Below, piece by piece: positions 7,802-45,552 of a stretch of DNA of 64,000 nucleotides. The stretch comes from Prostheceraeus crozeri. Taxonomy: Eukaryota; Platyhelminthes; Polycladida; Euryleptidae. Each line of letters begins with the position of its first letter. Within the stretch, counting starts at the first letter, position 1. The position numbers and the translations under genes are program-made. The notes beneath the pieces are model-generated. The model saw only the letters and a list, made by a program, of their open reading frames with translations, made no database searches and was not told where the DNA came from. The stretch spans positions 62,001 through 126,000 of the forward strand of contig CAJQUW010014418.1 in the NCBI GenBank assembly GCA_907163375.1, given 5' to 3'.

Positions 7802-7810
7802 AGGCGTCCA

Positions 7811-16694: not shown

Positions 16695-17525
16695 AAGATA
16701 AAAGAAAAGAAAAAAATATATATTTACGAATTGAAAATCACAAAATGAAACAGAATTAAGTTGGAATACATGTTAGGTCGGACAGGTCGTTGAAAATCAA
16801 AGATGCAAGCACAGTATAACAATTCTGTCTTTTGCTGCTTTTGCAAAAAGGTACCAGTGCACGATTGCTGTGAGTACGAATATGTGGCACAATATGAGAA
16901 AGTGGATGGTCAACATTTTGGCTCTTCAAGAAAAGGGACATGAAAGCCTCGCGACGCAAAGAGTTTAGACGAGTGACTTTGTTTACACAATCACAATTTT
17001 TCTTGCAAATAACTTTACGAGCCCGTCTAAAAAGTCTCTCAATTTGAGTTCTTACATCACAACTAAAAATACCAAACAATTGCGTACAGTACAACAAAAC
17101 ACTTTCGATAGTAGCTTTAAAAACCAACCAAAGGTCATCGTGACCCAGCAAACTACGCAGAACATGCAGAAACAATAGTCTTAAAATGAGTGATCCACCT
17201 AAGATCTTTGGTCTACGTGACACCGAGTAGTCTGAGTTCATCAACAAGAGCAAAAGGAAGCGGAAGGTGAAAAGAAAATGTTTTCTTACAAACACACATA
17301 GCTTTCGTTTTCGACTCATTCAGATTCAAATTATTTAGCGCAGCCAATTCTCGAATATTATACAATTCCTCCGTGATCATATCCGTGGAGCGTACAATGT
17401 TGTTTCTAAAAACGGGACAAACTTCACAGATATCATCAGCATACATCGTCAAAACAGTGGTTGGATACACAGACTTTATATCATTGCAATAAAGTACAAA
17501 AAGATAAGGGCCGAGTAAGGACCCC
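16695..17525 (-). pseudogene. LINE-B piece 3: RT catalytic half and 3' end
   Basis: The minus strand resumes the RT of a LINE exactly where the piece at 34161-35108 stops. After the giant palindrome it continues with LLGPYLFVLYCND, the catalytic TMYADDICEV (17390-17430) and the NLNLNESKTK motif. A shifted frame (16756-17160) follows, with the post-RT domain (IESVLLYCTQLFG, IERLFRRARKVICKK, CYTVLASLIFND). The element ends in an AT-rich 3' UTR near 16695, where family-R sequence resumes. APE-type non-LTR element, probably of the CR1/Jockey assemblage. Confidence 0.82.
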
Positions 17526-18017
17526 AGTAGTAATCCCGTGGCAAAATCAAGCGCAGTGCGGTGCAGCGATGAGTCATCATGCTGACTCAGCCCCGTGACC
17601 TTAGGTTATGACCTCGCGTGAACTTAGGTTACTGTTACTCGTCATGAAATACGTGATGTGACTACTGCTGGTTTTACAAGTAGTGCTAAAAATGGAAAAA
17701 TGTGAAGGCGTGTGAAGGGTATTACTGAGTGCATTGTGATGAGACTACAAGCAGAGGCAGGAGTGACCTTGACCTGACTTCTCCGGGGTTGAGACTACAA
17801 TCAGAGGCAGGAGGAGTGACCTTGACCTGACCTCTCCGGGAGAGAGGGTGAGACTACAAGCAGAGAAGGGATTTTGTCCAGGATGGAGCTTGTTTTGTGT
17901 CATGTCGTGCAGAAGTGGATGTCTTTTGTCCAACGTTACCACTGATCTCTGACTGTAGGATGTGATGGGACACTATGTCATTAGATGCATGTGGTGAGAA
18001 GAGAAAAGGTCATTCGC

Positions 18018-18036
18018 CTCTCTCTCTCTCTCTCTC
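18018..18036. repeat. CT microsatellite
   Basis: (CT)n run in the left arm, mirrored by an interrupted (GA)n run near 33634-33660 in the right arm; the lengths differ between arms. Confidence 0.8.
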
Positions 18037-20166
18037 ATCAGATGACTCCAAAAACCGGGTTTCCGTAGGAAACCAAGGCAGATTTTTCGATTGCCGCACT
18101 CACCTAAGTTGTCATAGTGAGTGGAGATCCAGGAGATGGCCTGGATATCAGGCCATTGTAGTAGGCCTAAACTTTAAAGGCATGTATCCCTGCTTGTAGG
18201 AATCGGATAGACTTCATTCAACGTCTGTTCGAGAGGTTATGATTCAAGTCAAGTCATAGACTACTTATAAACTTTTTATAAGTAGTGCAAAACTACCGAA
18301 AAATTTAAATTCGTTGTTTTTGGAGGCTTTCTGGGGTTTTTGAGCCTGCTGAAGTCAACCAAGGCATTTGTAAGTGTGTATGAGCGTTCTGATTGGACGA
18401 GCGAGGATTCCTACCTCATCAAACATCCACTATAAAGAAGAGAGTTAACTTTCATGGTCACATTTACCTTTAGCAAGTGTCGGTGGCTCTGCTATCAGGC
18501 CAATTCCAAACCACTCAAAAGGTGCATGGCAAGGAGAACTTCGGTATAATAATGTCCTGTCGATGGGCGATCTTTCGAGACGGCGGTGAGACCCGCAGTG
18601 ATAAGTGCCGCATGGGGTTGAAACTTCCTTAATCCGACTTTCCAACGGTCGTTGTGGCTTCTATTCCTCTACGTAGCGCTTTGAACGTCAGGGCGACACT
18701 TAGGTATCTGTCACAGGTTTCCTTATAAATTCTCCATTGCACCGAGTGAGTCAAACATCTGACTTCTTATCGAGTCAAGGTATGACGTGTTCCAAAAGAA
18801 GGGACAGACTAAGTCTAAGGTTGCTCAAGTCAAAGGTTTCTAATTCTTAAGTCTCAATATGACCGTCAGGGTTACCATCTGTCGAAGGTAACCTATCTCT
18901 ATTGCACTGAGTGGAGAATCCGTTCTTTTAAGTTCTGTCTCACGGAGGGATGATCAAACGGGGGACCACCACATGCAACACATGCTTCTCTCTTCTGTAG
19001 CAAGCAATCTCTTATCATGAAACGTTGTTGATAGGAATCCCTATGTTATCCACACTTCAACAGGATAGGAATGTTTTATAAAATCAAATAAAGGATGGTG
19101 AAAACTAACAAGCATGATAGAGTCAACATGAAAGACTCATTCATTGGATAGAAAAAAAAGTTCAGTATTGAAAAGTAAAAATCAGTTGTGTAGTGCAAGA
19201 ACATCCAGTGACAGATGATCATGAAACTTCCTTAATCCGACTTTCCAACGGTCGTTGTAGCGTTTCATGTTTGTGAAACGCAACGTTGACTTTCATAAAT
19301 TCTAAACGTATAGTTGTCCGTCTAAACAATTGTTGGTAGAGCAGAAAAGTTAAAGTGTTGTCATGTTTTTCAATGTGTTTTATAAAAGTATTAAGTGTTG
19401 TCATCAGTTTAAATGATTTTTATAAGAGTAGATGTCAAGTGAAATGATTTTTATAAAAGTCTAAACGCAAGCGTTGAAATACGTTTTGCAAGAAGTTAAA
19501 AACATTGACATGATTGTGTGAAAGTAGAGACTTAGCGAACGTTGAAAACAGTTTTATGAGAGCAGTATGAGCAAAATGTTTCTGCAGTCAATGTTGTCAA
19601 TGTGCATCCATCTGGACAGCACTAGAAAGTTTTAGAAGGTTTTACTGCACTGTGTAGATTATTTTGTTTCACAGTGTTAAAAGGTTTTATAGTGAGTACT
19701 ACAGTGTTGAATGTTTTATAAAACCAGGCAAAGTCTTGTCACAAACGTTGAGTGTGTGAGAGAATCTAGGGCTAGCAATAAGTTCCATGACATTTCTAAG
19801 TCCATCACATTGGTCATACAACACATCACAAGTTCTAAAGCTCATCATCTGAAGGATAGGGCTCTCTACGAGCGGATTTAGGGATTTAGGGTTTTATATA
19901 ACACAAGTGAATGTTAACCGTTAGATGATACATGAAGTCTATCACGTTGGTCATAATGTACATATGAGACAAATTATCAAGTCTTACCAGTTATTGAAAT
20001 GAAAGATAGAGTATATTTCGCTACTGACAAAATATATGAATGAACAAGAGTAATAAAACCGAAGTTAGATTTCACTGAGTCATCAACACTTGTAAAGGTG
20101 TACAAGTCATATTAAGCATATTCAACTGAGTGTCCATTCTTGACGCCCATCATCATTTGAAATGAT

Positions 20167-20463
20167 TTGAAGATGAAAAGTTGCATTCGTTTCCCAACTT
20201 CATGGTTTGTAGCAAGAGACCTTGGCTATTCGTTGAAACCTATAGAAAGTGTTACAAATGTAAATGAAAATATTAAACCTGGGGCTTTAGTTGAAAGACT
20301 AATGGGTCTAGATGAGTATGCTATGAATCATCATTTGGATCGAAGTTGGATAGAGAATTTTTCCATGCTGCAATGCAATGATAGTGAAAATAAGAGGATG
20401 AGATTGATGCTTTCTCTCGCCAGGTCAGAGTACTTTAGCCATCTGCCACAGGCTACTTTATAA
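20167..20463 (+). CDS. hypothetical 98-codon frame in the giant palindrome, left copy
   Basis: The longest open frame in the arm. The product has a fairly natural composition (MKMKSCIRFPTSWFVARDLG at the start) but no motif I recognise. The mirror copy at 31209-31505 differs by one conservative substitution (Arg/Lys), which is expected from arm identity alone and so gives no evidence of selection. It may be a chance frame. Confidence 0.2.
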   Translation: MKMKSCIRFPTSWFVARDLGYSLKPIESVTNVNENIKPGALVERLMGLDEYAMNHHLDRSWIENFSMLQCNDSENKRMRLMLSLARSEYFSHLPQATL

Positions 20464-22375
20464 AATCTCCATTGCACTAAAGGTTGGTGTCTCAGGATAT
20501 TTCCTATCAAACCCCTCTACAACCTGTGGGTGCTGCTGTCAGGCCTCTTATTCCCTCTGCTATCAGGGGTGGTGTTACTTTATCCATCCTCTGCTAAGAG
20601 ATACTTTGACATCAAATCACTCTAGGTTTTGTGTCTCTGCTAATAGGTGAAATCTTGGCTGAGTTTCCACCCTCTGATATCAGAGGGTCTGCTATCAAAT
20701 CACTTTATCCATTCTCTGCCAACAGAAGTGGCTTGCTATCAAGTCATTCTCACGTCTTGCCTACACTCAAAGTGTGCATGGTAAAGAGATGTTCGGTGTA
20801 ATACTTCCTATCGACGGGCGTCCCTTTTGGGTGGCGATGGAATACGCAGCGAAGAATACCGCATGGGATATTCGGCAATTGTAATCCTTGTTAGAACCTC
20901 TCTGCGTCATGTTTGCAGGAGGTTGCCTTATCGTCTCGACGAAGTGCTCTGACCGCCAGGGTAACATTTAGCCATCTGTTGAAGTTTACTTTAAAACACC
21001 TCCATTGCACTGAGTGTTAAAAACGTTGACAACCCAAGTTGATGAGAATGACTCAAGAGTTCTTTTAAGAACTGTCTCTATCACGAAGACGAAATGATGA
21101 ATGGAATGAAAGGGAGATCACTCACGTACCAAATACGAACATGAAACACTTCTCTCTTATTCAGTATGCAAGCTCTTCAAACCTCATACTCAGTCACATA
21201 ACGACTAGAAAACGTTCATAACTGCAATGTGTATCGTAGGCTTCATGAAAGATGCTTACTGGAGTAAAATGTATAAGGATGTTTCACTTCCGAACGTTGC
21301 TTGTCTTGTATTAAGACTTAAGATAGGAAAATGTCCCTACATCCGTACCGCAGTGTTTATCAGTACCGCACTGTATCTCATAGGGTTTATGAAACAAAAA
21401 GTCCTGTAGTGTTCTGCTTCCTCACACATTACGAATGCATGAGTTTAGAATGTTCTGATGTGAAAACAGTGTTCACCACAGCACTAGGAGTTTTATCAAA
21501 AAGGTTTTGCTGCACTGTGTAGATTGTTTCACAGTGTTAAAAGGTCTTATAGTAAGTACTACAGTGGTGAATGCTCTACAAACTAGGTAAAGTCTTGTCA
21601 CAAACGTTGAGTGTGTGAGGGTTAGCTATTGGTTCCATGACATTTAATCACGTGGGTCATAGCACAAGTCCTAAAGTCCATAATCCAAGGGTAGGGTCAT
21701 CTACGGTTGGATTTAGGGATCTAGGGTTTTATATAACACAAATGGACCGTGAAACATGAAGTCTATCACGTTGTTCATATGAGATGCATTATCAAGTGCT
21801 GCTAGTCATCGAAGTGAAAACCCAAGTCATCATGAATTGAACATGAAACCTATGAGATGGATAAGAATAATTGTTGATGTATGCATAATTTCATGACAGC
21901 AGAGTTTCAATCGTCTACAAGTCACAGGGATGAATGTGTATTTAGAGCTAACCAAACGCTGTTTTTAAAGTGACATACAATTTGCGACTAGCACTTGGTC
22001 TATCGGGTTTATCATTTGTGAATGACCAAGTGAGATTTACATGACATCGAATTGGGAAATGTAAACCAAGCGTCATACGAAAGTGTATAAAATAAATATT
22101 TTGTAAACGAACGTTTTTGGATGTGTTACACACCTTTGCTGTGCCTGAAGTTTTACAATGTCAAGTTCATTCTTGAAAACGTAAACGACATGGATACATT
22201 CCTAAAGTCCATAATCCAAGGATGGGGCTATCTACGGTTGGATTTAGGGATTTAGGGTTTTAGGGTTTTATATAACACAAGTGAATGTTAGCCGTGAAAC
22301 ATAAAGTCTGTTACTCTTGGTCATAATGTACATATGAGACAAATTATCAAGTCTGAAATGAAAGATGAAGTATAA

Positions 22376-22830
22376 AGTATAAAATGAAGTTAGAATCATT
22401 TCACTGTTTGTAAAGTTAGAAATAAAGTTGTTGTTTGTAATGTTAGGAATAAAGTTAGAATCATTTCAGTGTTTGTAATGTTAGGAATAATGTCTGATTC
22501 ATTTCACTGTTTGTAAAGTTAGAAATAAAGTTGATGATTGTAAGCTTGAATTAATGTTAGAATCATTTCAGTGTTTGTGTGATAGGTAAAATATAATACA
22601 AAGTCACAAGTATTTCACTGTTTGTAAGATAAGTGAACAATCAACTAAGGTCATAACCTTTCGCTGTTTGTAAGATAGGTGAAGTATAAAATAATGCCAC
22701 AATCATTTCAGAGTTTGCAAAATTGGAAATAAAGTTGTTGTTTGTAATGTTAGGAATAAAGTTAGAATCATTTCAGACTTTGCAAGATAGGTAAAGTAAA
22801 AGATAAAGTTAGAAATAAAGTTGATTGTTC
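22376..22830 (+). repeat. tandem repeat, ~60-70 bp units
   Basis: Several diverged units combine AATCATTTCASTGTTTGTAA with GTTAGRAATAAAGTT. The array is mirrored at about 28917-29300. Confidence 0.75.
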
Positions 22831-25673
22831 TGTAAACGGATGTTTTTAGATGTATGGATATGTTATGCATCTTTGCTGTGAATGAAGTCAACAATACAAT
22901 GTCAAGTACATTCTTGAACACGTCAATGACATGGATACATTCCTAAAGTCCATAATCTAAGGGTAGGGCTATCTACTGTTGGATTTAGGGATTTAGGGTT
23001 TTATATAACATAAGTTGATGTTAACCGTTAGTGTATAGTACATTTATTAACTTAACCATTTGCGAATGATATAGCTAAATTGCTAAGGTTCATAATCTAA
23101 GGGTAGGGTTGTCTACGGTTGGATTTAGGGATTTAGGGTTTCATATAACACAAATTGACGATCTCTTTTAGTGTAGAATACATGCAACACATGATGTATA
23201 TGCTCGCTTTATAAAATGACTTTGAATGTAAGACTTAATTTCATGGTGAAAAGACAGGTTTCATATCGTTGATAAGGGATAGTTACATATTCATTATGTT
23301 ATACACTTTACATTTGATGCAGTCAGCTGAAATGCGACTGATACATGTTCAATAGAAGAGTTGAGTACATTGTATGCATTCCGGTGATTGGAATAGTAAG
23401 TGTGTAAAGAGTTGATTAGGAAAATATATAATAGTCAACGTATGAAAGTTTCTTGTTATGCAAGCTAGGAACATGCAAACATCATTCACTAGTTAGTGTT
23501 GTGCTTTAACATCCATGTTTTGTACAAGGTAGGTAGGATTCGTCGGATTTGTTATGACGAATGGTTGGATAAATTCATTAAGCTTTGAGTAACACAAACC
23601 AAGTATTAAAACGAAAAGCATAAGTGATAAAAAGTTTGTGACATGAAAAACTTAAGTATATAATGCTAAACATCAGGTGATGATGATGGATAGAAATAAG
23701 TGATGTAATTAATGTCTTGTCTCACATTAGTTTACTTGTACGTTTGCTGTAATTGTCATGGTGATAGAACTGTAAATCTCATCAGTATGACTTTTACAGT
23801 GTGAAGCATCTTGGGACTCTAGCTAGACAATGACCAAAGAGTAAATAAAACGTAAGTGAAATACAGGGTCATACAGAGGTTTAGGATTCTACGACGTTTG
23901 TGGTGTTGATATGAATGTTGTTCAACAGATTGGAAGCGTTAAATGATCTGCTGATATATTTTACAGTAAACAAGAAAATCAGTAAGAGGAGTGATAGGAA
24001 AACGTCTTCACAAATGCAGACAAGTGGAAACTCTACCAAATGACTACATGCACGGATTTTATCATCCATCATCAAAGTGAATTTAGTTCAACAAGTTACA
24101 TGAATGTTAAAAGTCGTGTGCTGACAGAGACATAGGTTTACTAAATTATACAGCTAAACTCCTAAATCACTAAAACCATAGGATAGGTATCCCTGTGTTA
24201 AGACTTAGGGATTTACCGTCTTAGAAGTGCAAGTTACATTGACAAATCACTAAGTCCATAGCATAGTCAGCCCTATAACAAGACTTAGCGTTTTATATGA
24301 TCCATGTTAGCAATGTCTGTTCGTGTAGAATGTGACTGAATGAATTTAGTCAGATAATGTGTCATCAACTTTATTCACTTAGTTATATGATGGAGAAAGT
24401 GTGAGATAGAAGTGAAAGTGATCTCATAAAGTTTAGAACACATAGTAGTAGCATTGTAGGAATAAGTAAAGTGAAAAGTTATGTCGCATGAAATGAGTGA
24501 TGCAAGATTAGCTCGCATTGAAATGAATTGGTAGTGTAATAAACAGGCTATGTGGGATTCAGCATATGTTTGAAGACAAGCCCTGTTAAAAGGTTTTCAG
24601 ATGATGTGAATTTTATCACGTCATGTTCATGGATGTAGCAGAATGAATGTCTCTACTGGTTGAGTGTATAAGATAGAACACATAACATAGTTGCTGTATG
24701 TAAACTAGAGGTTCATATTCGACGAAAGCAAAGATTGAGATTGCAAAGTTTGATGAATAGGTAGTGTACTAAACTGCTTGAATCAGTGACATAGTTAGAA
24801 TAAACAACAGTACCATTTCGAGATATAATCACACAGCATTAGGACTGTTGGTTTATGAACGTAATTCATGTAAAAGTTATATAGAAGTAACTTGTTGATG
24901 GAGACAAGGCACTATGTGTGCGAAAGTAGGAATAGCATGTAATGACTGGAGTATGGGTTGTGCCAACTGTACATGAAAAGCTATTTCCAAAAGGAACTAA
25001 GTGACACGAATATATGAAGAGTTAAGTAAATGCAAGCCTTTCATATTGATGAGTATGTGATAGAAGAATAACTGATGACATGATTGTGGGAATCAGGACA
25101 AGTTTTAAGTCAGCTACTGCTAAAGGTTTTATGATAGTATTTGATATCGAAGATTTAATGTAATGCATCATGTCTACAGATTCAATGTGTAATAGAATAA
25201 ATGTCGTTGCAGGTTTTGAGTGTATAGGATAGAACACATGAAATAGTTGTTATACGTAAGTGCAAGTTAAAGTATCACAGTTGATTTACATCTGAAAGCT
25301 TATGTAAGTAAGACTTGATCATTGATAGACTTCACATTGTATGTTATGTTGAATGAATAGTTGAATTGATATTCATAAATGGAAGGTTGATATATCGAGA
25401 AACAGTGTTAAGTCTCGGTGTATATGTCGCAGATGTTTTCATAATGCGCATGAAGCAACATACTTATCAATCTGGTCAGTTGGACTTTGCCATCTAATAT
25501 TTTTTCTTTATATTCTCTTTCTCTCTGTATGCCGGTGTCTGTTATTTTCTTCTTGCACAAGGTTGGTTGTTAGGTAGGGCTTGTAGTTGTTAGGGAATGG
25601 GTAGTGCAATATGGGATGCACATTGGGAAGAATAAGTTGAGTGTATGTATTAGAATCAATCTGGTCAGTAGGG

Positions 25674-25858
25674 TAGTTCTCCCTTTACTTTTTTCTTTAC
25701 ATTCTCTTTCTCTGTCTGCCTGTGTGTGTGTTTTCTTCTTTGTATCTGGTTGGGTAGGTGTTATGACTTTCTAACTTGGGTTCTTTTTATATTTGAAGGA
25801 ATGTGTTGATAGAGCATGATAGTAGGAAAATCTCATGGACAGTATTTCTGTATATTGC
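25674..25858 (+). repeat. left-arm-only segment, diverged duplicate of the preceding ~180 bp
   Basis: TTTTCTTTACATTCTCTTTC, TGTGTTTTCTTCTT and GGTTGGGTAGG echo 25500-25590, and ATCTGGTCAGT occurs before both. It looks like a tandem duplication gained by the left arm or lost from the right arm. Confidence 0.6.
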
Positions 25859-25892
25859 AAAAGGTCTAGCATCATGGCTAGTAAGGTAGCAG

Positions 25893-26030
25893 CTCCTTGC
25901 GTACAAATTCCGTGTATGTGTGTGAGTGCGTGTATGCGTGCATGAGCGTGTTAGAATAAAATGCCGACTTGTATGTACATTAAACTAATGAACACCATAC
26001 TAAATGAGAAGAAGCAAATGACATCATTTG
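25893..26030. other. central spacer of the giant palindrome
   Basis: The only stretch of the element without an inverted partner. It is TG/CG-rich at first (GTGTATGTGTGTGAGTGCGT) and AT-rich later. It would form the loop of an 8-kb hairpin. Confidence 0.75.
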
Positions 26031-29000
26031 GCTGCTACCTTACTAGCCATGATGCTAGACCTTCCCTACTGACCAAATTGATTCTAATACATACACTCAA
26101 CTTATTCTTCCCAATGTGCATCCCATATTGCACTACCCATTCCCAAACAACTACAAGCCCTACCTAACAACCAACCTTGTGCAAGAAGAAAATAACAGAC
26201 ACCGGCATACAGAGAGAAAGAGAATATAAAGAAAAAATATTAGATGGCAAAGTCCAACTGACCAGATTGATAAGTATGTTGCTTCATGCGCATTATGAAA
26301 ACATCTGCGACATATACACCGAGACTTAACACTGTTTCTCGATATATCAACCTTCCATTTATGAATATCAATTCAACTATTCATTCAACATAACATACAA
26401 TGTGAAGTCTATCAATGATCAAGTCTTACTTACATAAGCTTTCAGATGTAAATCAACTGTGATACTTTAACTTGCACTTACATATAACAACTATTTCATG
26501 TGTTCTATCCTATACACTCAAAACCTGCAACGACATTTATTCTATTACACATTGAATCTGTAGACATGATGCATTACATTAAATCTTCGATATCAAATAC
26601 TATCATAAAACCTTTAGCAGTAGCTGACTTAAAACTTGTCCTGATTCCCACAATCATGTCATCAGTTATTCTTCTATCACATACTCATCAATATGAAAGG
26701 CTTGCATTTACTTAACTCTTCATATATTCGTGTCACTTAGTTCCTTTTGGAAATAGCTTTTCATGTACAGTTGGCACAACCCATACTCCAGTCATTACAT
26801 GCTATTCCTACGTTCGCACACATAGTGCCTTGTCTCCATCAACAAGTTACTTCTATATAACTTTTACATGAATTACGTTCATAAACCAACAGTCCTAATG
26901 CTGTGTGATTATATCTCGAAATGGTACTGTTGTTTATTCTAACTATGTCACTGATTCAAGCAGTTTAGTACACTACCTATTCATCAAACTTTGCAATCTC
27001 AATCTTTGCTTTCGTCGAATATGAACCTCTAGTTTACATACAGCAACTATGTTATGTGTTCTATCTTATACACTCAACCAGTAGAGACATTCATTCTGCT
27101 ACATCCATGAACATGACGTGATAAAATTCACATCATCTCAAAACCTTTTAACAGGGGTTGTCTTCAAACATATGCTGAATCCCACATAGCCTGTTTGTTA
27201 CACTACCAATTCATTTCAATGCGAGCTAATCTTGCATCACTCATTTCATGCGACATAACTTTTCACTTTACTTATTCCTACAATGCTACTACTATGTGTT
27301 CTAAACTTTATGAGATCACTTTCACTTCTATCTCACACTTTCTCCATCATATAACTAAGTGAATAAAGTTGATGACACATTATCTGACTAAACTCATTCA
27401 GTCACATTCTACACGAACAGACATTGCTAACATGGATCATATAAAACGCTAAGTCTTGTTATAGGGTTGACTATGCTATGGACTTAGTGATTTGTCAATG
27501 TAACTTGCACTTCTAAGACGGTAAATCCCTAAGTCTTAACACAGGGATACCTATCCTATGGTTTTAGTGATTTAGGAGTTTAGCTGTATAATTTAGTAAA
27601 CCTATGTCTCTGTCAGCACACGACTTTTAACATTCATGTAACTTGTTGAACTAAATTCACTTTGATGATGGATGATAAAATCCGTGCATGTAGTCATTTG
27701 GTAGAGTTTCCACTTGTCTGCATTTGTGAAGACGTTTTCCTATCACTCCTCTTACTGATTTTCTTGTTTACTGTAAAATATATCAGCAGATCATTTAACG
27801 CTTCCAATCTGTTGAACAACATTCATATCAACACCACAAACGTCGTAGAATCCTAAACCTCTGTATGACCCTGTATTTCACTTACGTTTTATTTACTCTT
27901 TGGTCATTGTCTAGCTAGAGTCCCAAGATGCTTCACACTGTAAAAGTCATACTGATGAGATTTACAGTTCTATCACCATGACAATTACAGCAAACGTACA
28001 AGTAAACACATGCGAGACAAGACATTAATTACATCACTTATTTCTATCCATCATCATCACCTGATGTTTAGCATTATATACTTAAGTTTTTCATGTCACA
28101 AACTTTTTATCACTTATGCTTTTCGTTTTAATACTTGGTTTGTGTTACTCAAAGCTTAATGAATTTATCCAACCATTCGTCATAACACATCCGACGAATC
28201 CTACCTACCTTGTACAAAACATGGATGTTAAAGCACAACACTAACTAGTGAATGATGTTTGCATGTTCCTAGCTTGCATAACAAGAAACTTTCATACGTT
28301 GACTATTATATATTTTCCTAATCAACTCTTTACACACTTACTATTCCAATCACCGGAATGCATACAATGTACTCAACTCTTCTATTGAACATGTATCAGT
28401 CACATTTCAGCTAACTGCATCAAATGTAAAGTGTATAACATAATGAATATGTAACTATCCCTTATCAACGATATGAAACCTGTCTTTTCACCATGAAATT
28501 AAGTCTTACATTCAAAGTCATTTTATAAAGCGAACATATACATCATGTGTTGCATGTATTCTACACTAAAAGAGATCGTCAATTTGTGTTATATGAAACC
28601 CTAAATCCCTAAATCCAAACGTAGACAACCCTACCCCTTAGATTATGAACCTTAGCAATTTAGCTATATCATTCGCAAATGGTTAAGTTAATAAATGTGC
28701 TATACACTAACGGTTAACATCAACTTATGTTATATAAAACCCTAAATCCCTAAATCCAACGGTAGATAGCCCTACCCTTAGATTATGGACTTTAGGAATG
28801 TATCCATGTCATTGACGTGTTCAAGAATGTACTTGACATTGTATTGTTGACTTCATTCACAGCAAAGATGCATAACATATCCATACATCTAAAAACATCC
28901 GTTTACAGAACAATCAACTTTATTTCTAACTTTATCTTTTACTTTACCTATCTTGCAAACTCTGAAATGATTCTAGCACTATTTTATACGTCACCTATCT

Positions 29001-32000
29001 TACAAACAGCGAAAGGTTATGACCTTAGTTGATTCTTCACTTATCTTACAAACAGTGAAATGCTTGTGACTTTGTGTTATACTTTACCTATCACACAAAC
29101 ACTGAAATGATTCTAACATTAATTCAAACTTACAATCATCAACTTTATTTCTAACTTTACAAACAGTGAAATGAATCAGACATTATTCCTAACATTACAA
29201 ACACTGAAATGATTCTAACTTTATTCCTAACATTACAAACAACAACTTTATTTCTAACTTTACAAACAGTGAAATGATTCTAACTTCATTTTATACTTTA
29301 TACTTCATCTTTCATTTCAGACTTGATAATTTGTCTCATATGTACATTATGACCAAGAGTAACAGACTTTATGTTTCACGGCTAACATTCACTTGTGTTA
29401 TATAAAACCCTAAAACCCTAAATCCCTAAATCCAACCGTAGATAGCCCCATCCTTGGATTATGGACTTTAGGAATGTATCCATGTCGTTGACGTTTTCAA
29501 GAATGAACTTGACATTGTAAAACTTCAGGCACAGCAAAGGTGTGTAACACATCCAAAAACGTTCGTTTACAAAATATTTATTCTATACACTTTCGTATGA
29601 CGCTTGGTTTACATTTCCCAATTCGATGTCATGTAAATCTCACTTGGTCATTCACAAATGATAAACCCGATAGACTAAGTGCTAGTCGCAAATTGTATGT
29701 CACTTTAAAAACAGCGTTTGGTTAGCTCTAAATACACATTCATCCCTGTGACTTGTAGACGATTGAAACTCTGCTGTCATGAAATTATGCATACATCAAC
29801 AATTATTCTTATCCATCTCATAGGTTTCATGTTCAATTCATGATGACTTGGGTTTTCACTTCGATGACTAGCAGCACTTGATAATGCATCTCATATGAAC
29901 AACGTGATAGACTTCATGTTTCACGGTCCATTTGTGTTATATAAACCCTAGATCCCTAAATCCAACCGTAGATGACCCTACCCTTGGATTATGGTCTTTA
30001 GGACTTGTGCTATGACCCACGTGATTAAATGTCATGGAACCAATGGCTAACCCTCACACACTCAACGTTTGTGACAAGACTTTACCTAGTTTGTAGAGCA
30101 TTCACCACTGTAGTACTTACTATAAGACCTTTTAACACTGTGAAACAATCTACACAGTGCAGCAAAACCTTTTTGATAAAACTCCTAGTGCTGTGGTGAA
30201 CACTGTTTTCACATCAGAACATTCTAAACTCATACATTTGTAATGTGTGAGGAAGCAGAACACTACAGGACTTTTTGTTTCATAAACCCTATGAGATACA
30301 GTGCGGTACTGATAAACACTGCGGTAAGGATGTGGGGACATTTTCCTATCTTAAGTCTTAATACAAGACAAGCAACGTTCGGAAGTGAAACATCCCTATA
30401 CATTTTACTCCAGTAAGCATCTTTCATGAAACCTACGATACACATTGCAGTTATGAACGTTTTCCAGTCGTTATGTGACTGAGTATGAGGTTTGAAGAGC
30501 TTGCATACTGAATAAGAGAGAAGTGTTTCATGTTCGTATTTGGTACGTGAGTGATCTCCCTTTCATTCCATTCATCATTTCGTCTTCGTGATAGAGACAG
30601 TTCTTAAAAGAACTCTTGAGTCATTCTCATCAACTTGGGTTGTCAACGTTTTTAACACTCAGTGCAATGGAGGTGTTTTAAAGTAAACTTCAACAGATGG
30701 CTAAATGTTACCCTGGCGGTCAGAGCACTACGTCGAGACGATAAGGCAACCTCCTGCAAACATGACGCAGAGAGGTTCTAACAAGGATTACAATTGCCGA
30801 ATATCCCATGCGGTATTCTTCGCTGCGTATTCCATCGCCACCCAAAAGGGACGCCCGTCGATAGGAAGTATTACACCGAACATCTCTTTACCATGCACAC
30901 TTTGAGTGTAGGCAAGACGTGAGAATGACTTGATAGCAAGCCACTTCTGTTGGCAGAGAATGGATAAAGTGATTTGATAGCAGACCCTCTGATATCAGAG
31001 GGTGGAAACTCAGCCAAGATTTCACCTATTAGCAGAGACACAAAACCTAGAGTGATTTGATGTCAAAGTATCTCTTAGCAGAGGATGGATAAAGTAACAC
31101 CACCCCTGATAGCAGAGGGAATAAGAGGCCTGACAGCAGCACCCACAGGTTGTAGAGGGGTTTGATAGGAAATATCCTGAGACACCAACCTTTAGTGCAA
31201 TGGAGATTTTATAAAGTAGCCTGTGGCAGATGGCTAAAGTACTCTGACCTGGCGAGAGAAAGCATCAATTTCATCCTCTTATTTTCACTATCATTGCATT
31301 GCAGCATGGAAAAATTCTCTATCCAACTTCGATCCAAATGATGATTCATAGCATACTCATCTAGACCCATTAGTCTTTCAACTAAAGCCCCAGGTTTAAT
31401 ATTTTCATTTACATTTGTAACACTTTCTATAGGTTTCAACGAATAGCCAAGGTCTCTTGCTACAAACCATGAAGTTGGGAAACGAATGCAACTTTTCATC
31501 TTCAAATCATTTCAAATGATGATGGGCGTCAAGAATGGACACTCAGTTGAATATGCTTAATATGACTTGTACACCTTTACAAGTGTTGATGACTCAGTGA
31601 AATCTAACTTCGGTTTTATTACTCTTGTTCATTCATATATTTTGTCAGTAGCGAAATATACTCTATCTTTCATTTCAATAACTGGTAAGACTTGATAATT
31701 TGTCTCATATGTACATTATGACCAACGTGATAGACTTCATGTATCATCTAACGGTTAACATTCACTTGTGTTATATAAAACCCTAAATCCCTAAATCCGA
31801 TCGTAGAGAGCCCTATCCTTCAGATGATGAGCTTTAGGACTTGTGATGTGTTGCATGACCAATGTGATGGACTTAGGAATGTCATGGAACTTATTGCTAG
31901 CCCTAGATTCTCTCACACACTCAACGTTTGTGACAAGACTTTGCCTGGTTTTATAAAACATTCAACACTGTAGTACTCACTATACAACCTTTTAACACTG

Positions 32001-34160
32001 TGAAACAAAACAATCTACACAGTGCAGTAAAACCTTCTAAAACTTTCTAGTGCTGTCCGGATGGATGCACATTGACAACATTGACTGCAGAAACATTTTG
32101 CTCATACTGCTCTCATAAAACTGTTTTCAACGTTCGCTAAGTCTCTACTTTCACACAATCATGTCAATGTTTTTAACTTCTTGCAAAACTTATTTCAACG
32201 CTTGCGTTTAGACTTTTATAAAAATCATTTCACTTGACATCTACTCTTATAAAAATCATTTAAACTGATGACAACACTTAATACTTTTATAAAACACATT
32301 GAAAAACATGACAACACTTTAACTTTTCTGCTCTACCAACAATTGTTTAGACGGACAACTATACGTTTAGAATTTATGAAAGTCAACGTTGCGTTTCACA
32401 AACATGAAACGCTACAACGACCGTTGGAAAGTCGGATTAAGGAAGTTTCATGATCATCTGTCACTGGATGTTCTTGCACTACACAACTGATTTTTACTTT
32501 TCAATACTGAACTTTTTTTTCTATACACTGAATGAGTCTTTCATGTTGACTCTATCATGCTTGTTAGTTTTCACCATCCTTTATTTGATTTTATAAAACA
32601 TTCCCACCCTGTTGAAGTGTGGATAACATAGGGATTCCTATCAACAACGTTTCATGATAAGAGATTGCTTGCTACAGAAGAGAGAAGCATGTGTTGCATG
32701 TGGTGGTCCCCCGTTTGATCATCCCTCCGTGAGACAGAACTTAAAAGAACGGATTCTCCACTCAGTGCAATAGAGATAGATTACCTTCGACAGATGGTAA
32801 CCCTGACGGTCATATTGAGACTTAAGAATTAGAAACCTTTGACTTGAGCAACCTTAGACTTAGTCTGTCCCTTCTTTTGGAACACGTCATACATTGACTC
32901 GATAAGAAGTCAGATGTTTGACTCACTCGGTGCAATGGAGAATTTATAAGGAAATCTGTGACAGATACCTAAGTGTCGCCCTGACGTTCAAAGCGCTACG
33001 TAGAGGAATAGAAGCCACAACGACCGTTGGAAAGTCGGATTAAGGAAGTTTCAACCCCATGCGGCACTTATCACTGCGGGTCTCACCGCCGTCTCGAAAG
33101 ATCGCCCATCGACAGGACATTATTATACCGAAGTTCTCCTTGCCTTGCACCTTTTGAGTGGTTTGGAATTGGCCTGATAGCAGAGCCACCGACACTTGCT
33201 AAAGGTAAATGTGACCATGAAAGTTAACTCTCTTCTTTATAGTGGATGTTTGATGAGGTAGGAATCCTCGCTCGTCCAATCAGAACTCTCATACACACTT
33301 ACAAATGCCTTGGTTGACTTCAGCAGGCTCAAAAACCCCAGAAAGCCTCCAAAAACAACGAATTTAAATTTTTCGGTAGTTTTTCACTACTTATAAAACG
33401 TTTATAAGTAGTCTATGACTTGACTTGAATCATAACCTCTCGAACAGACGTTGAATGAAGTCTATCCGATTCCTACAAGCAGGGATACATGCCTTTAAAG
33501 TTTAGGCCTACTACGATGGCCTGATATCCAAGCCATCTCCTGGCTCTCCACTCACTATGACAACTTAGGTGAGTGCGGCAATCGAAAAATCTGCCTTGGT
33601 TTCCTACGGAAACCCGGTCTTTGGAGTCATCTGATGAGAGAGAGATAGAGAGAGAGAGAGAGGCGAATGACCTTTTCTCTTCTCACCACATGCATCTAAT
33701 GACATAGTGTCCCATCACATCCTACAGTCAGAGATTAGTGGTAACGGTGGACAAAAGACATCCACTTCTGCACGACATGACACAAAACATGCTCCATCCT
33801 GGACAAAATCCCTTCTCTGCTTGTAGTCTCACCCTCTCTCCCGGAGAGGTCAGGTCAAGGTCACTCCTCCTGCCTCTGATTGTAGTCTCAACCCCGGAGA
33901 AGTCAGGTCAAGGTCACTCCTGCCTCTGCTTGTAGTCTCATCACAATGCACTCAGTAATACATCTCGCCTTCACATTTTTCCATTTTTAGCACTACTTGT
34001 AAAACCAGCAGCAGTCACATCACGTATTTCATGACGCGGAAAAGTAATCTAAGTTCACGCGAGGTCATCACCTAAGGTCACGCAAGGTCACGGGGCTGAG
34101 TCAGCATGATGACTCATCGCTGCACCTCACTGCGCTTGATTTTGCCACGGGATTACTGCT
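26031..34160 (-). repeat. right arm of the giant palindrome
   Basis: Inverted copy of 17526-25892, with all internal modules mirrored. The match runs to the very end of the element, showing that the whole arm was duplicated or converted as a unit. It lacks the ~185 bp at 25674-25858 of the left arm. Confidence 0.85.
31209..31505 (-). CDS. hypothetical 98-codon frame in the giant palindrome, right copy
   Basis: Mirror of 20167-20463, one residue different. It has no recognised domain, and the same caution applies. Confidence 0.2.
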   Translation of the reverse strand: MKMKSCIRFPTSWFVARDLGYSLKPIESVTNVNENIKPGALVERLMGLDEYAMNHHLDRSWIENFSMLQCNDSENKRMKLMLSLARSEYFSHLPQATL

Positions 34161-35108
34161 GGACCCCTGTGGCGCCCCGCTAGTCACAGGACGTGGGTCA
34201 CTCAAAGAGTCCAAAACTTTGGCGGATTGAGATCTATCAGACAGATAGGAACAAACCCAGGAAATAAAGCCACGAGGATAATTACACTGAATAAGTTTGC
34301 GTACCAGGAGATTATGAGAAATCGTATCGAAGGTCTTCGAAAAATCATAGTTTAAAACAAAACAACCACTAACATCATCGGAGTCTAGCATTTTTGTCAC
34401 AGCATCATCTATAGTAATTAAACAACATGTCCTGTTGGAAAGAGGCTTATAGGCAAACTGATAAACAGGATTGTCTCTGAGAAAACTTTCACGCATATGC
34501 CCTAACACATGATATTCCAGTAGTTTTGCAGGGACACTTAGTAATGTGATAGGACGAAGCTGATGGATCAATACAGGCGAAACTTTCGGGACAGGTGATA
34601 TAGTACAATTTTTAAACAGGATAGGCACCTTTCTATCAATTATAGACGAATTGACAATATTGCACAATGGATGGGAAATGAACGGGGATGCCAACTTATA
34701 AAACTTGTTCTGAATACTATCAGAACCGGTAGACTTATTCAGTGACAAACGCTCTAGAAAACTATAAACATCAATGAGATCTAGCAAAGGGCACCAATCA
34801 TCATCCGAGTAAGCAAAAGGATCATTTACAGTAAAATTACTAACAGAAATATCATTGATAGCATTGGCAGCAGTGTGGTTGTTAGGAAAGTCATCAGAAA
34901 TATTTGCAATTGAATTGGTCGAGAACTTGCCTTTGACATCATTCACTACATTCCATACATTGCGGGAGGAGAGCTTGGAACGTTGAACCCAATCTTCCTT
35001 ACATTTGCTATTTCGGCCTTGCACTTTTCTTTATGATGATAGTTAAGCTGAAAGTTTCCTACACGGTAGGCATTCCATCTCTTATTGATAATATCTTTAA
35101 GATATGGT
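34161..35108 (-). pseudogene. LINE-B piece 2: RT N-terminal half
   Basis: The minus strand begins right after the Polinton insertion with YLKDIINKRWNAYR, typical of the linker between endonuclease and RT. It continues (after a frameshift near 35030) through FNxxLRPITLLSVPAKLLE-like sequence (QLRPITLLSVPAKLLEYHV), FAYKPLSNRT, NYDFSKTFDTISHNLL (palm Asp) and VTSGAPQGS. There the giant palindrome interrupts the GxPQGSxLGP motif. The frame joins to piece 3 at 17525. The open frame shown from 34101 runs into palindrome sequence at its end. Confidence 0.85.
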
Positions 35109-35853
35109 AGTAATGGATATATGACTGTTCCAGGACAACCAAAAAAAAATGAAAAAAAATAAGGTACCCCAAAAATGCAAAAAAATGAATATATGACCGA
35201 TTCAGGACAACTAAAAAAATAAAATAAGATACCTCCAGAATGAGTATAGGAAATATTTCATACACTGAAAAAGAGTTTCATAGAAATAAAAAATAAAATG
35301 ACAAAATAAAAAAAATTAGTTTTAAGCTTGTTGGGATTTTTTCATACACTGAGAATGAGTATAGGAAATATTTCATACACTGAAAAAGAGTTTTATAAAT
35401 AAAAATAAGTCTAAGGATAAAATCAGAAAAACAGTTTTAAGCTCGTTGGGATTTTTTCATATACTGAAAAGAGGTCTATTTTAAAAAGGTCTAAAAATAT
35501 CACGTAGTCGAAAATTTAAGTTGTCTCAAAATATCAGGTGGTCGAAAATTTAGGCAGACGAAAATTTAAGTTGTCTCAAAATATCACTTAGTCTCAATAT
35601 ACCAGAAGATTGTATTCAAAATATTTATTAAAAAATGGATGAAACAAAAGTGGAAGAAAACTCAACGGGGACGGCGACGACGAAAATGGAAGGAACCTCG
35701 AAAATATATCCTTCGTTATCACAATTAAAAATAACTGAATTGAACATTGAAAAAATGAATAAAGGAAAACACAAAGATATAGTTAGGTATATGAAAGATA
35801 AGGAATCTCAATTATTATTAAGATTAGAGCATTATGATAAATTAAGAAAGAGA
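35109..35853 (+). repeat. left terminal inverted repeat, with tandem repeats
   Basis: The inner part (about 35488-35853) matches the inverted right end, including short units with TAGTCGAAAATTT and AAAATATCACGTAGTC and the first ~70 codons of gene 1. The outer part differs from the right end and holds two tandem pairs: ATATGACYGWTYCAGGACAA at 35115 and 35190, and a ~117-bp unit starting GAATGAGTATAGGAAATATT at 35238 and 35353. Confidence 0.75.
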
Positions 35854-36690
35854 TGGTCTAAAGTTAAGAATGTAACACAAGGTATTGGAATATTTTTGAC
35901 AATAAGTTTAGGTGCTTTAACAATTGTTATATCTTCAGGTGTTTTAGAAATTCCAGTAGTTGCTACTGCTTTGACAGGTACGGGTGTTTTTACAACTTCA
36001 CTTGTTACAATGTTAGATAAATCTTTAATAACTAAGAAACGAAAATCATTAAAAACTAAGTATTTACATATTAAAGAAGTCTATGACAAATTACATTACT
36101 ACTTTCAAAGAGTATGTGATGATAATGTTATTACGTTAGATGAGATTGAAAAATTTGATCAAATAGCTAATGAAGTAAATCAAATATCATTTCAATTACA
36201 GTCAGAAAAAGTTGATGATAAGAATAAACAGGATGGCAAAATTTCTAGTGATGGTAAAACTTCTATTGAGGAAACTGATAAAGTTTTTTTTATAAGAACT
36301 AAAAGCTTTAAGCGAAACTTTCAGCAAAACTTTATTAAACAAAACTTAAAACGAAAAGATGCCAGACAACAAAGCAATAAAAAAATAATTTGTTCAGTAA
36401 AATGTTTTTGTTGTATTCCAATGTTACCACAAAAGTCAAATATTATATTTCAAAAATGGATAAAATTAAAGCTGATAATCAAAAAAGAATCCAACGATGA
36501 GTTAATAAAACAAAAAAATATTATGAAAGAAAATCATACTCAAAATAGAATGATGAAAGCTGGTATTCAATCTGATATGTTTGAAAAAATGCAGCAAACC
36601 GAGCAAGTAAAAACTGATTTTGAAAAAATATGGAACCATTTAAAACTCTTGAAAAAGAACTTACAAATAATGATAAACAAATTAATATAA
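35635..36690 (+). pseudogene. Polinton gene 1: two-helix membrane protein (partly frameshifted)
   Basis: An open frame of 351 codons with an AAAAAATG start. A Lys/Glu-rich N-terminal part with IYPSLSQLKITEL and QLLLRLEHYDKLRKR precedes two likely membrane helices (GIFLTISLGALTIVISSGVL and IPVVATALTGTGVFTTSLV, residues about 88-128), then a charged helical region (KSLKTKYLHIKEVYDKLHYY). The last ~100 codons probably belong to the next gene read through a shifted frame. I do not recognise the family; its place before penton and ATPase suggests a virion or membrane-associated product. The first ~70 codons are duplicated, inverted, at the right end of the element. Confidence 0.55.
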
Positions 36691-37268
36691 CAGATCCAGC
36701 TCACAAAACTATATTAGATGACTATGGATTATTAGAATCAAACATTAATAAGAAATTACCAAAATCTATGCAATTTGAACATTCTATTTCATTTATAGAT
36801 GGAAAAACAATACCTAGATTTTATCTCGGACAAAAAGAAATATTTCCACAACCTTTTCGAGGTTTAATTTTTTCACCAGATAAATCTCCTTTTAGTTTAG
36901 ATCGAAATTTTGTTGATCTTTTAAGAGGAGCAGATTTAAATAATTATGCTGTAGAAGATCTCATAAAATATAAAGCTATGTTAGATAGAGTTGGTGCAGC
37001 AAAATCTCTTAGACGTTATAAACAATTACAAAATTTATTATCAACGGGAGTTAAAGTAGGAAAAGGTTTTAAAACAGAAACAACTGTATTTTTACCAGAT
37101 GATCCACAAAAATTACTAAATAGATTAAATATTTTAATATCTGCAATAAAAGAAAGACATAATTCTAGTTTCAATGAAATTCATGCTATATTGAAAAGAC
37201 TGTTAGAAAAGAAGATTCTAAATGAAGAGGATTATAAAGGTATAGCTGAAATATGTTGTTGTTTTTAA
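36458..37268 (+). pseudogene. Polinton gene 2: unidentified conserved-looking protein
   Basis: The main open part is 36630-37268 (212 codons). It has ISFIDGKTIPRFYLGQKEIF, SPFSLDRNFVDLLRGAD and a C-terminal helical segment (LLNRLNILISAIKERH). An ATG at 36458 in a CAAAAATG context and coding-like sequence in two other frames before 36630 suggest the gene starts there and was broken by frameshifts. No catalytic motif is seen. It sits between the membrane protein and the penton in plus-strand orientation. Confidence 0.45.
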
Positions 37269-37309
37269 TTTTTGATAAAAAAATATTTATTTAAAATTTT
37301 AACTAAAAA

Positions 37310-38097
37310 ATGTGTTCAGCAGATTTAGACAAAATTAATAATCATTTAGCAAATCTAACAGAGATTTTGGGTTCATCAAAATTTAGTACGACGTTAAAAA
37401 TTATGACAACTACTTCATCACACACTTGTAATTTAGAACCCATTCTACATTTGGAACAAAATAAAAATTATCAAATTGCATTGACTAGTTTCTCCACATT
37501 TAACACTATTCAAACGTTATCAAAGATGTTAATGATGAATTTAGATATTCTACTGATAAAGGTAAAACGTGGAAAATGCTAACTTTTCTTCCTTGTTCTT
37601 ACGAAGTTGAATCAATATCAAATGAAATTAAGAGACATTTAGGTATACCATTTAAAGAAAAGAAACAATTACATTTTGCAGTTGAACCGGCAGTTAATAA
37701 ATTTTCTCTTACTTTAGACGAAAATCATCAAGTTGATTTTAATCATGATAGATCATTGTCAAAACTATTAGGATTGAATAAACAAACCTATAATCAAGGT
37801 TATCACTTAGGTGAGAAAATTCCAAAAATAACTGAAATAAATTCAATTGTTGTACATTGTGACATTATTGAAGGAGGATATATAAATGGTAAATTATCAA
37901 ATTTAATATTCAGTTTTCCAGCTTTTACTGTACCCATTGGTTATAGATTAAATGTATTTCCACAAACATTAATATATTTCCCTATTACAAGAAAAACTAT
38001 TAACAACATTAACATTAGAATCACTGATGAGAAAGGACAAGAAATAAATTTTGGAGGTGAAGAGATTATGATAGATCTTTTGGTTAGAGAAGTTTAA
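37310..38097 (+). pseudogene. Polinton penton-like minor capsid protein
   Basis: Two frames (37310-37582, 37576-38097) joined by a frameshift near 37530 give about 262 residues. The N-terminal part has LEQNKNYQIALTSFSTFNTI, the pattern that opens Polinton minor capsid proteins. The C-terminal part has INSIVVHCDIIEGGYINGKL, FPQTLIYFPITRKTI and RITDEKGQEINFGGEEI, consistent with a single jelly-roll penton protein, which occupies the vertices of the icosahedral capsid. The start ATG follows ACTAAAA. Confidence 0.7.
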
Positions 38098-38138
38098 TTT
38101 TCTTCTTCTTCTTTAAAAATAAAAATTTCTTATTAAAA

Positions 38139-38952
38139 ATGAGTGAATTTCCCCCATTAAATAAAAAAAAGCTTAAATTTAATCATCATCCAAATCTATC
38201 TAATAAAGTTTTGACAGTTATTTGTGGTAGATCAGGATTTGGAAAACATATTTATCATTTAAAGTTTTAACGACTCCAAATTTTTTGGATTATAACAATC
38301 CTATAATTTATACAACAACAGCAGAACAACCCGTCTATCAATTTTTAAAATATGGATTTGAAAATAATCTTTAAAAAACAGCAATTGCTTCATTATTCAA
38401 AGAATATGAAAAATCTGAATATGAAGAAGAAATAAGTTCGTGGTGTGAAGAAACAGCAAAAAATAATCAGTTAGTAGAATCCAATAAAAATAAGCATATA
38501 AAGATACAATTAATAGATGATAGTGGTAATATGCAAGATCCTAGTAAACTAGATAAAACAATGAAACCTTGTGTAATTTTTGATGATTGTGTTAATGATA
38601 GAAATCAGTCAGTTCAGAGAAATTATTTCACAAGAGGTAGACATAATAACTGTAGTGTTTTTTTATTTAACACAAAGTATGTATTCATTAGACGGAAGTG
38701 TTATTAGAAAGAATGCAAATATATTTATACTATTTGAAATAAATGCAAGAAACTTAAGTGCTTGCATTAAGAGATTTATGTGTAAGAAATAAAGATGAAT
38801 TTAAACAATCGTTTAACAATGCTTGGTCAAAAGATTATGGCTTCATTACAATTAATATTGATAAAAAATTCATGATAGAGTTATCGAACAATTGTTCTCT
38901 GACTAAGCTTCGCCCCGACTGGAAGTCGATAGAAAATATTTTCGCGGAGTGA
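38139..38952 (+). pseudogene. Polinton DNA-packaging ATPase (FtsK/HerA type)
   Basis: Starts at a TTAAAAATG context. Walker A is VICGRSGFGK (about 38220-38248); the base after the Lys codon is disturbed, so the usual Thr/Ser is lost through a frameshift. Walker B is KPCVIFDDC (about 38565-38590). It is followed by YFTRGRHNNCSVFFLTQSMY, the conserved sensor block of this ATPase group, and by IFILFEINARNLS. At least three frame changes lie between 38240 and 38780. The enzyme would pump the element's DNA into capsids. Confidence 0.8.
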
Positions 38953-38987
38953 TCGAATAATTTATTTTTTTCTTAATCTTTAGAAAT

Positions 38988-41900: not shown

Positions 41901-43013
41901 TATTTTTACTCATATTATATTCTTTTAGATTTTTTTGGTGACAATATTTTTATATTGTTGTAGATTTTTTGGATGGCATTCTAGTTCATTGAATTGAGAA
42001 TTACATTGTTGGTATACTATGTATGATAATTTTAAATATTCTTCATCTTCAAGATTCCTTTCGTCTTCAATATATTTGTGAAATAATATAGTTTCTTCTT
42101 GTTGACATTCTTGTAGATATTGTTTATGTAACATTTGTAACTCTTGTTGATATTGTTTTTTATATAGTTGCGGTAACATCTCTAACTTATGTCTATATTC
42201 TGATGATAGAGATGAATATTCTGTTTCATGCCTATAAGGAAATCCACGTCCTTTATAATTATTATGATTAATCATTATTGGTGATAATGTTTTTATAATT
42301 TCATATTTTTCAGTACATATTACATTTCCTTTGTAAATGATATTATGATGCATGTAATTTCCTCTTTCATTGTATACTATTTCTGTTTGGCATAAATTTT
42401 TGTTATTCAAATAAAATTCGTTTAAGTTGTTATAAACAATGTAATTAACTTCAATATCTCCGGGATATAAGGGATTAACATCACCAATAGAAACATACTT
42501 CACATTTAATTCAAAAGCATTTACTTCTATTAAATTTTTATTCCTTTTTTGAAACTTCATTAACCTATTATAATCATATGGAAATTCATCTAAGCCATCA
42601 GAAAGATCAAATTAATTTATATATTCTTCTTTATTATAATGACTTAGTCTTTCTTTATAATATTTTGCAGGATGAAAATGTGCTATAACACTCCACAGAA
42701 AACAATATTCATCTTCATTCCGTATGTTGATTATTTGTGGAGAACTGAAAGGAAGGGGTATGTAACTACCGCCAGTATTATTTTCATATTTGTCAATTAC
42801 TATTTTCTTAGATAGTATTGCAACAAATCTCCAACAAGATTCACGCAACTCAGCTTCAGTTATATCATCTTTTAATTTATTTATCATTTTTTCAAATATA
42901 GGTTGTATATCATTTACATTATGAATTTCCTGTGTCTGTGTAAAATATCCTTGTATTATTTCTTCAGGAATTCCATCAGGTCCATTTTTTGTATAAAGTA
43001 CTTCTACATTCAT
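38988..43013 (-). pseudogene. Polinton protein-primed DNA polymerase B
   Basis: About 4 kb on the minus strand in at least five frame pieces. The N-terminal domain (42612-43013) has GGSYIPLPFSSP and CFLWSVIAHFHPA. An unusual Gln/Tyr/Glu-rich coiled-coil section follows (42230-41760). Next are a zinc-finger-like segment (FPCLQCMTSF...HLENC), ExoI YYDFEAY, ExoII YFYNGSKYDFYLV, motif A LLYYDFNSLYF, motif B KLMNNAFYGKT, motif C HFTDTDS (about 39440-39462) and the C-terminal DPFDDKRKILPDG. It would replicate the linear genome from a terminal protein primer. Stops or shifts at about 42605, 41920, 41238 and 39695 inactivate it. Confidence 0.9.
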
Positions 43014-43171
43014 ATAACACTTGAAAGATTTCTTAAATATATTATGGAAGTTTGTTAATACATCAAAAAAGTTTCATCCGTTTCATTATGTTCAACCGAT
43101 TCATTAAATAAATATTTTATATCTGTTACAGCTTCGTCGGTTTTGTCAGTTTCGTCAGTTTCATTAAATAA

Positions 43172-45512: not shown

Positions 45513-45552
45513 CGTAAATCTTTTTCCCAAAAGTCAAATTTAATCCTAAAAA

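Follow-up and report, generated by a model that had tools for sequence, protein, structure and literature searches.

Results

The palindrome and its insertion site

The window examined here is a 64,000-nucleotide stretch of the genome of the polyclad flatworm Prostheceraeus crozeri (C11969:62001-126000). Positions 17526-34160 hold a 16,635-bp element, nearly all of it one inverted repeat, inserted in a long interspersed nuclear element (LINE). In a self-BLAST comparison, 17524-25680 paired in inverted orientation with 34162-26057 at 97.9% identity over 8,176 aligned columns, in agreement with an original prediction from the sequence, which had described a near-complete inverted repeat with 8-kb arms. 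Each arm is 8.1 kb long (by self-alignment, left arm 17526-25680 on the plus strand and right arm 26057-34160 on the minus strand). Between the arms, 87 of 8,095 aligned bases are substituted, and there are several indels. A segment of approximately 185 bp near the centre (25681-25863, plus strand, boundaries approximate) is present in the left arm only and absent from the right arm, and a 65-bp indel separates the arms at about element position 5,237. The prediction had listed the sparse substitutions and the 185-bp segment and had missed the indel. Inward of this segment lies a short inner arm (25864-25893 on the plus strand, ending in ...CATGGCTAGTAAGGTAGCAGC, and 26031-26056 on the minus strand, outer boundaries approximate), followed by a central unpaired spacer of 137 bp (25894-26030), whose presence had been predicted correctly and whose length had been given as 138 bp. 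The GC content of the palindrome is 37.5%. The inner arms (window 22000-30000), in which no coding sequence was recognised, have a strong mirror-symmetric GC skew of about +0.2 to +0.3 on the left, reversed on the right.

The left end of the element starts with AGTAGTAA, and the right end carries one substitution, AGCAGTAA. The conserved tip, AGTAGTAATCCCGTGGCAAAATCAAG...GATGAGTCATCATGCTGACTCAGCC, occupies 17526-17595 on the plus strand, and the corresponding right tip (34091-34160, minus strand) reads AGCAGTAATCCC, with one substitution in the AGT repeat. A 7-bp target duplication, GGACCCC, was read directly at both flanks (17519-17525 and 34161-34167). Removal of the palindrome and one copy of GGACCCC restores the reading frame of the host LINE, ...SGAPQGSLLGPYLFVLYCNDI..., so that both the duplication and the restored frame agree with what had been predicted. 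The reverse transcriptase part of the LINE lies upstream of the insertion in the LINE sense (34168-35030, minus strand; PF00078 on the 34104-35030 frame, E 1.1e-8), and frame translation shows that the same reading frame continues at 17213-17518 on the minus strand.

A family of palindromic copies

The assembly searched contains 2.05 Gb in 14,165 contigs. A search with the terminal 1 kb of the element found at least 50 matches (3,597 first-look candidates, 40 scored), and many of the matches listed were inverted pairs 13.6-20.8 kb apart. Nine further copies were fetched in pieces for comparison. Eight of them have long arms around a centre of approximately 0.1-1.9 kb, and in the ninth, C13699, the arms enclose a rearranged centre of approximately 9.6 kb. 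All except C6699 have segments homologous to both the outer and the inner parts of the window copy's arm; C6699 shares the outer 3.6 kb or so of the arms only, and its inner part and centre differ. By eye, the 137-bp spacer was recognisable in four of the five other centres printed, in either orientation, and not in C6699.

A subterminal arm motif occurred 226 times in the genome (107+119) and a centre motif 90+81 times, and the reversed-pattern controls gave 0+0 for each. The number of arm motifs suggests approximately 110 palindrome copies. Among the 100 arm places listed, 56 formed 28 convergent pairs, of which 25 were spaced 13.2-18.9 kb, and no divergent neighbouring arms were listed within 45 kb. 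Unpaired minus-strand arms in the same list lay within 20 kb of a contig start in 13 of 27 cases, and the assembly may be broken there. Shorter members of 5.0 kb (C8316) and 11 kb (C4636) were also found. A strict packaging size was therefore rejected, and the spacing of 13.2-18.9 kb is a tendency only.

In C1652 (414646-431124) arm motifs on the same strand recur about every 4.1 kb, and in C609 (666768-677536) tip motifs on the same strand recur at steps of 1.8 and 3.6 kb. Such regular spacing suggests tandem arrays. In C11589 (131433-135193) approximately 180 bp of one arm is replaced by 3.76 kb, and the other arm has no insert. The replacing sequence includes Maverick-derived DNA that is 91% identical to window positions 35603-37113.

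Ends and target duplications

Both ends were read in 12 palindromic copies, ten of them over both arms and two (C11603 and C487) at the ends only. The ends were located with the (AGT)2 motif and then checked by the limits of arm homology and by the duplications. AGTAGTAA starts all 12 left ends and 11 of the 12 right ends, the window copy accounting for the remaining one. An exact 6-bp duplication flanks eight copies, and one with a single mismatch flanks two; the window copy has 7 bp, and C3843 lacks a duplication. For the family, 6 bp and not 7 is therefore the usual length. The search with arm and ends yielded complete copies with the same ends and different duplications. The original prediction had been staked on other copies existing, and the 226 arm motifs and the 12 copies with ends read provide them; its claim that the insertion moved as one transposable unit also holds.

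According to PMC8097293, vertebrate Mavericks most commonly end in 5'-(AGT)2//(ACT)2-3', and those that are intact have 6-bp target duplications. The palindromes have both. Their superfamily is recognisable because these ends and duplications are together the published Maverick/Polinton signature, and the earlier statement that no named superfamily with such ends was known no longer holds against that description.

The palindrome could have been created by the assembler, if a fold-back of a hairpin read had been written out as two arms. C3843, which has mirrored flanks without a duplication, would fit such an artefact. The other copies have different flanks and different duplications, the LINE frame is restored in the window, and the indels between the arms are asymmetric. 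We regard an assembly fold as extremely unlikely, since the flanks differ and ten of the other 11 copies are each bounded by a 6-bp duplication of their own, with one mismatch at most. A foldback element (FB/Galileo-like, derived from Mutator-like elements, MULEs) or an oversized miniature inverted-repeat transposable element (MITE) would account for long inverted arms that are non-coding and non-autonomous. Foldback/MULE elements make 9-bp target duplications, and the palindromes have 6-bp duplications with (AGT)2 ends. MITEs measure a few hundred base pairs; the arm motifs are mostly 13.2-18.9 kb apart, and the palindrome is tens of times the size of a MITE. This assignment is highly improbable.

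A tip pattern of 26 positions, allowing two mismatches or fewer, occurred 4,714 times in the genome (2,338+2,376), and the reversed control gave 0+0. From the exact matches listed, 26 convergent tip pairs with both ends read were taken. The duplication was an exact 6 bp in 18 pairs and had one mismatch in six; mismatched pairing of ends as a control gave agreement in 0 of 650 cases. Two pairs failed. In one (C302) the ends lie 69 kb from each other and are probably those of two elements. The other (C972b) has identical ends, yet four of the six duplication positions differ. The 26-base ends were identical within 21 of the 26 pairs, with several variants between copies; since 20 of these positions had been fixed by the search, this identity is informative for the six free ones. 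None of these pairs is among the 100 arm places listed, so they document a wider family sharing the tip and not the palindromes themselves. An exact 23-nt tip pattern had no matches in viral contigs.

Coding content

No Pfam family was found in the six frames of the left half of the palindrome or in two of the three minus frames of the right half, and no Rfam match was found in the palindrome. The polymerase, integrase, protease, ATPase and capsid genes of autonomous Maverick/Polinton elements were absent from the same Pfam frames. No stop-to-stop frame wholly within the palindrome exceeds 100 amino acids. The prediction had reported no recognisable gene, and in the frames scanned this is what we found. 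In the centre of copy C13699, three plus-strand frames gave nothing. Three protein searches returned 1, 1 and 195 matches.

A frame of 160 amino acids recurs in several palindrome copies. It has 43 nonsynonymous changes, one stop and 15 synonymous changes, compared with 380 nonsynonymous and 100 synonymous sites (counts without a formal test). It evolves like non-coding DNA with no sign of coding constraint, and we rejected it as a gene. In C6699, a frame of 184 amino acids has one relative at 63% identity, with a C-terminal stretch that is nearly identical by eye. It includes an acidic stretch with VIVISDDE, which we take to resemble a SUMO-interaction motif.

Similarity of the two arms

The outer parts of 20 arms were aligned over up to 4 kb, two of the right arms starting further inside. 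The two arms of a copy are 97.70-99.85% identical (outer 2.8-4.0 kb compared), and left arms of different copies are 89.8-98.8% identical. The two arms were sisters in all ten copies tested, with tree support of 0.996-1.000, and one arm therefore seems to template the other. Differences private to one arm made up 231 of the 290 arm differences among the copies compared, and they fell on both arms. In each of the ten copies the stem leading to it was 1.6 to 16 times as long as its arm branches.

Hairpin copying at mobilisation is the explanation that we tentatively favour, at not quite an even chance. It is supported by the whole-length palindrome, by a short spacer that can be recognised by eye in most of the other centres in either orientation, and by the fact that most pairs of the wider family have two identical extreme ends. 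Gene conversion in the chromosomal copy, as in the palindromes of sex chromosomes, may instead have kept the arms alike; we hold this to be a real if lesser possibility, and the element would still be a non-autonomous element of Maverick type. It is conversion, and not hairpin copying, that is favoured by the clustering of arm differences, which were over-dispersed in all eight copies tested (variance/mean 1.5-3.6, p 0.03 or less), with repeats and alignment noise also contributing. Stems longer than arm branches are likewise expected if old insertions keep converting. Of the eight copies for which arm data can be set beside a 6-bp duplication, C6699 and C9351, the two in which the duplication is mismatched, have the lowest arm identities. 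Duplication positions differed in 2 of 48 cases, somewhat more frequently than arm positions, in numbers too small for a test. A chromosomal process alone, however, leaves the origin of the palindromic form unexplained, as well as the symmetric difference of the whole inner segment and centre in C6699.

Gene-bearing elements and the neighbouring Maverick

A Maverick of 15,401 bp with 27.7% GC, at 35109-50509, is inserted in the LINE copy that also holds the palindrome. It has a 6-bp duplication, TATGGT, and the LINE frame is restored when its flanks are joined. Read inwards, its right end is AGTAGTATAGGG and its left end AGTAATGG; by eye, the right end is unlike the palindrome past the first seven bases. 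The Maverick has genes for a protein-primed polymerase (PF03175, E 2.3e-16) and for a double-jelly-roll protein (PF21738, E 1.5e-8).

Other gene-bearing elements have the tip of the palindrome. At least seven of the 26 end pairs (C70, C351, C569, C598, C972b, C1006 and C1120) hold a match to the TATA-binding protein (TBP) or to polymerase. The element at C1120 (299463-318484) is 19.0 kb long, with identical ends and an exact duplication, and holds a TBP-like gene together with a frame of 1,364 amino acids for a protein-primed polymerase. The element at C569 (34492-76928) also has an exact duplication and measures 42 kb. Its right end matches the palindrome at the tip only (69 aligned bases, 85.5%). 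Its polymerase frames match PF03175 barely above the cut-off (E 5.7e-6, 25.9 bits against 25.8), and the polymerase pieces are 26-34% identical to the polymerase of the window Maverick. Gene-bearing relatives with the same ends therefore encode a protein-primed family B polymerase (the PF03175 match in C569 and the frame in C1120). The TBP-like gene (PF00352) was found in C569 (E 7.1e-19) and in C11803 (E 2.1e-18), and an unassigned gene cluster is 93-95% identical between these two contigs. C569 carries two nested insertions, a LINE and a Maverick of the same kind as that of the window. We rejected it as a giant autonomous form, as these insertions account for much of its excess length, and we also rejected the 31-kb element at C351, whose interior lies outside the stretches read.

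A 28-base TBP motif occurred at 1,326 places in the genome (666+660; control 0+0). This high-copy element has a polymerase and a TBP-like gene between Maverick-type ends, and a literature search recognised no TBP-bearing Maverick among the matches listed. A polymerase piece compared with viral contigs had no confirmed relative among seven candidates.

The window has further mobile-element frames at 7802-10435, 56639-58744, 59445-61109 and 61703-62431. One of them is a frame of 877 amino acids with a reverse transcriptase domain. The frames look Penelope-like (the 877-amino-acid frame), hAT-like, piggyBac-like and mariner-like.

Discussion

Our data indicate that the palindromes are probably giant non-autonomous elements of Maverick/Polinton type. 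The original prediction had proposed that the insertion might be a new class of giant non-autonomous element. It is giant, non-autonomous and multi-copy; the new class did not stand. Judged by its ends, the palindrome is an extreme, fully palindromic variant of a putative Maverick-type non-autonomous element.

Several observations weigh against this assignment. The duplication of the window copy is 7 bp. C3843 (17218-33642) has no duplication and carries approximately 195 bp of mirrored flank beyond both ends, perhaps from a fold-back rearrangement after insertion or from an assembly error. The palindromes and the gene-bearing elements have only the outer 70 bp or so in common; beyond that, the palindrome arms have no relation to either end of C1120 or to the right end of C569. 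Past the tip, the two C1120 ends are 98.4% alike over 701 aligned bases. Such sharing of the tip alone is what is usually seen between a non-autonomous element and its helper. Outside the nested Maverick, Pfam found no integrase in the stretches of the relatives that were read (C11803 596.0-605.9 kb and C569 42.5-59.0 and 74.4-76.9 kb; C569 34.5-42.5 kb and the interior of C1120 lay outside the scan). The sole rve match, inside the nested Maverick in C569, was just under the cut-off (E 1.5e-7, 32.0 bits against 32.6). A coding relative with the same ends, as sought by the prediction, was found; no integrase that would name the mobilising enzyme was seen in the gene-bearing stretches read. In C11803 a palindrome arm precedes the TBP cluster, separated from it by unrelated DNA of 3.5 kb, and this arm beside a gene cluster may represent two broken elements. 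The arrangement had suggested a symmetric duplication of the left end of a gene-bearing element, in the manner of adenovirus. This was not supported, given the gap and given that both C1120 ends and the right C569 end differ from the palindrome beyond approximately 70 bp.

The lack of an integrase in the stretches read and the short common tip would also fit a cut-and-paste element of another superfamily that makes 6-bp duplications and resembles Maverick ends by chance. The same tip, however, bounds elements with a protein-primed polymerase gene, and both the end motif and the duplication length fit Mavericks. We therefore consider another superfamily unlikely.

For a Maverick-type palindrome, the anatomy suggests how it might move. 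Gene-bearing relatives, or other Mavericks of this genome, would supply the machinery that recognises the (AGT)2 ends, and the ends, duplications and restored LINE frame show integration by a 6-bp staggered cut. The form in which the palindrome moves is probably a linear copy made by replication. The genome is rich in protein-primed polymerase genes, some of them between ends of the tip family of the palindrome, and the palindromes may use the polymerase of these relatives. Almost all of the element is complementary to itself, so that a single strand displaced from it would fold back as an 8-kb hairpin closed by a 137-nt loop. If synthesis were primed at the only duplex end and continued round this loop, each cycle would yield a full palindrome with identical arms, and differences between the arms would accumulate after insertion. 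Such hairpin copying would explain the sister arms within each copy.

It is also conceivable, if rather doubtful, that the palindromes are gene-free satellite genomes of a Maverick-type virus, replicated by a borrowed protein-primed polymerase by way of a hairpin in which every cycle rewrites one arm from the other, possibly packaged in capsids and inherited through the germ line. Packaging in borrowed capsids would explain a length near that of Mavericks.

As a rule, non-autonomous DNA elements are reduced to their end signals and are tiny, and cells tend to break or delete palindromes. Here approximately 110 copies' worth of arms keep a virus-like element length and a palindromic form without a recognised gene. 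The family is therefore a large natural set for the study of how long palindromes persist in a genome. To our knowledge, the replication mode of Mavericks has not been observed directly. The sister arms of all ten copies make it testable from sequence, and under hairpin copying young insertions are expected to have identical arms that carry private variants.

Among known systems, Maverick/Polinton elements have the same (AGT)2//(ACT)2 ends and 6-bp duplications and a length of the same order (15.4 kb for the window Maverick). The palindrome differs from them in lacking a recognised polymerase, integrase, protease or capsid gene and in having a terminal inverted repeat that makes up almost its entire length and not just a part. 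MITEs and foldback elements are likewise non-coding inverted-repeat elements moved by the enzymes of others, and they differ in size, ends and duplication length. Among the open-licence papers listed, judged mostly by titles and the openings of abstracts, we recognised no description of a palindromic Maverick, nor did we in the excerpts of PMC10849321, PMC12368964, PMC8097293, PMC2836005 and PMC8235507. A palindromic hAT-derived element is described in the excerpt of PMC12368964. The large palindromic Tc1-mariner non-autonomous elements of Callosobruchus maculatus, with consensus lengths of 654-2,199 bp in the excerpt of PMC10849321, are often fully inverted, non-autonomous and amplified in one genome, as are the palindromes, but they are of mariner type and far shorter than the Maverick-type palindromes described here, which are mostly 13-21 kb.

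Symmetric adenovirus recombinants are self-complementary DNA molecules with one end present twice, and they depend on the replication of their parent. The nearest mechanistic likeness is to the snapback defective-interfering genomes of adeno-associated virus, which the excerpt of PMC8235507 describes as self-complementary, with one end twice and with replication dependent on the parent. Unlike these genomes, the palindrome is inherited in the host genome in about a hundred copies, and in the parts read its arm is not derived from a gene-bearing relative. If the palindromes were satellites, they would be a heritable equivalent of the snapback defective-interfering genomes.

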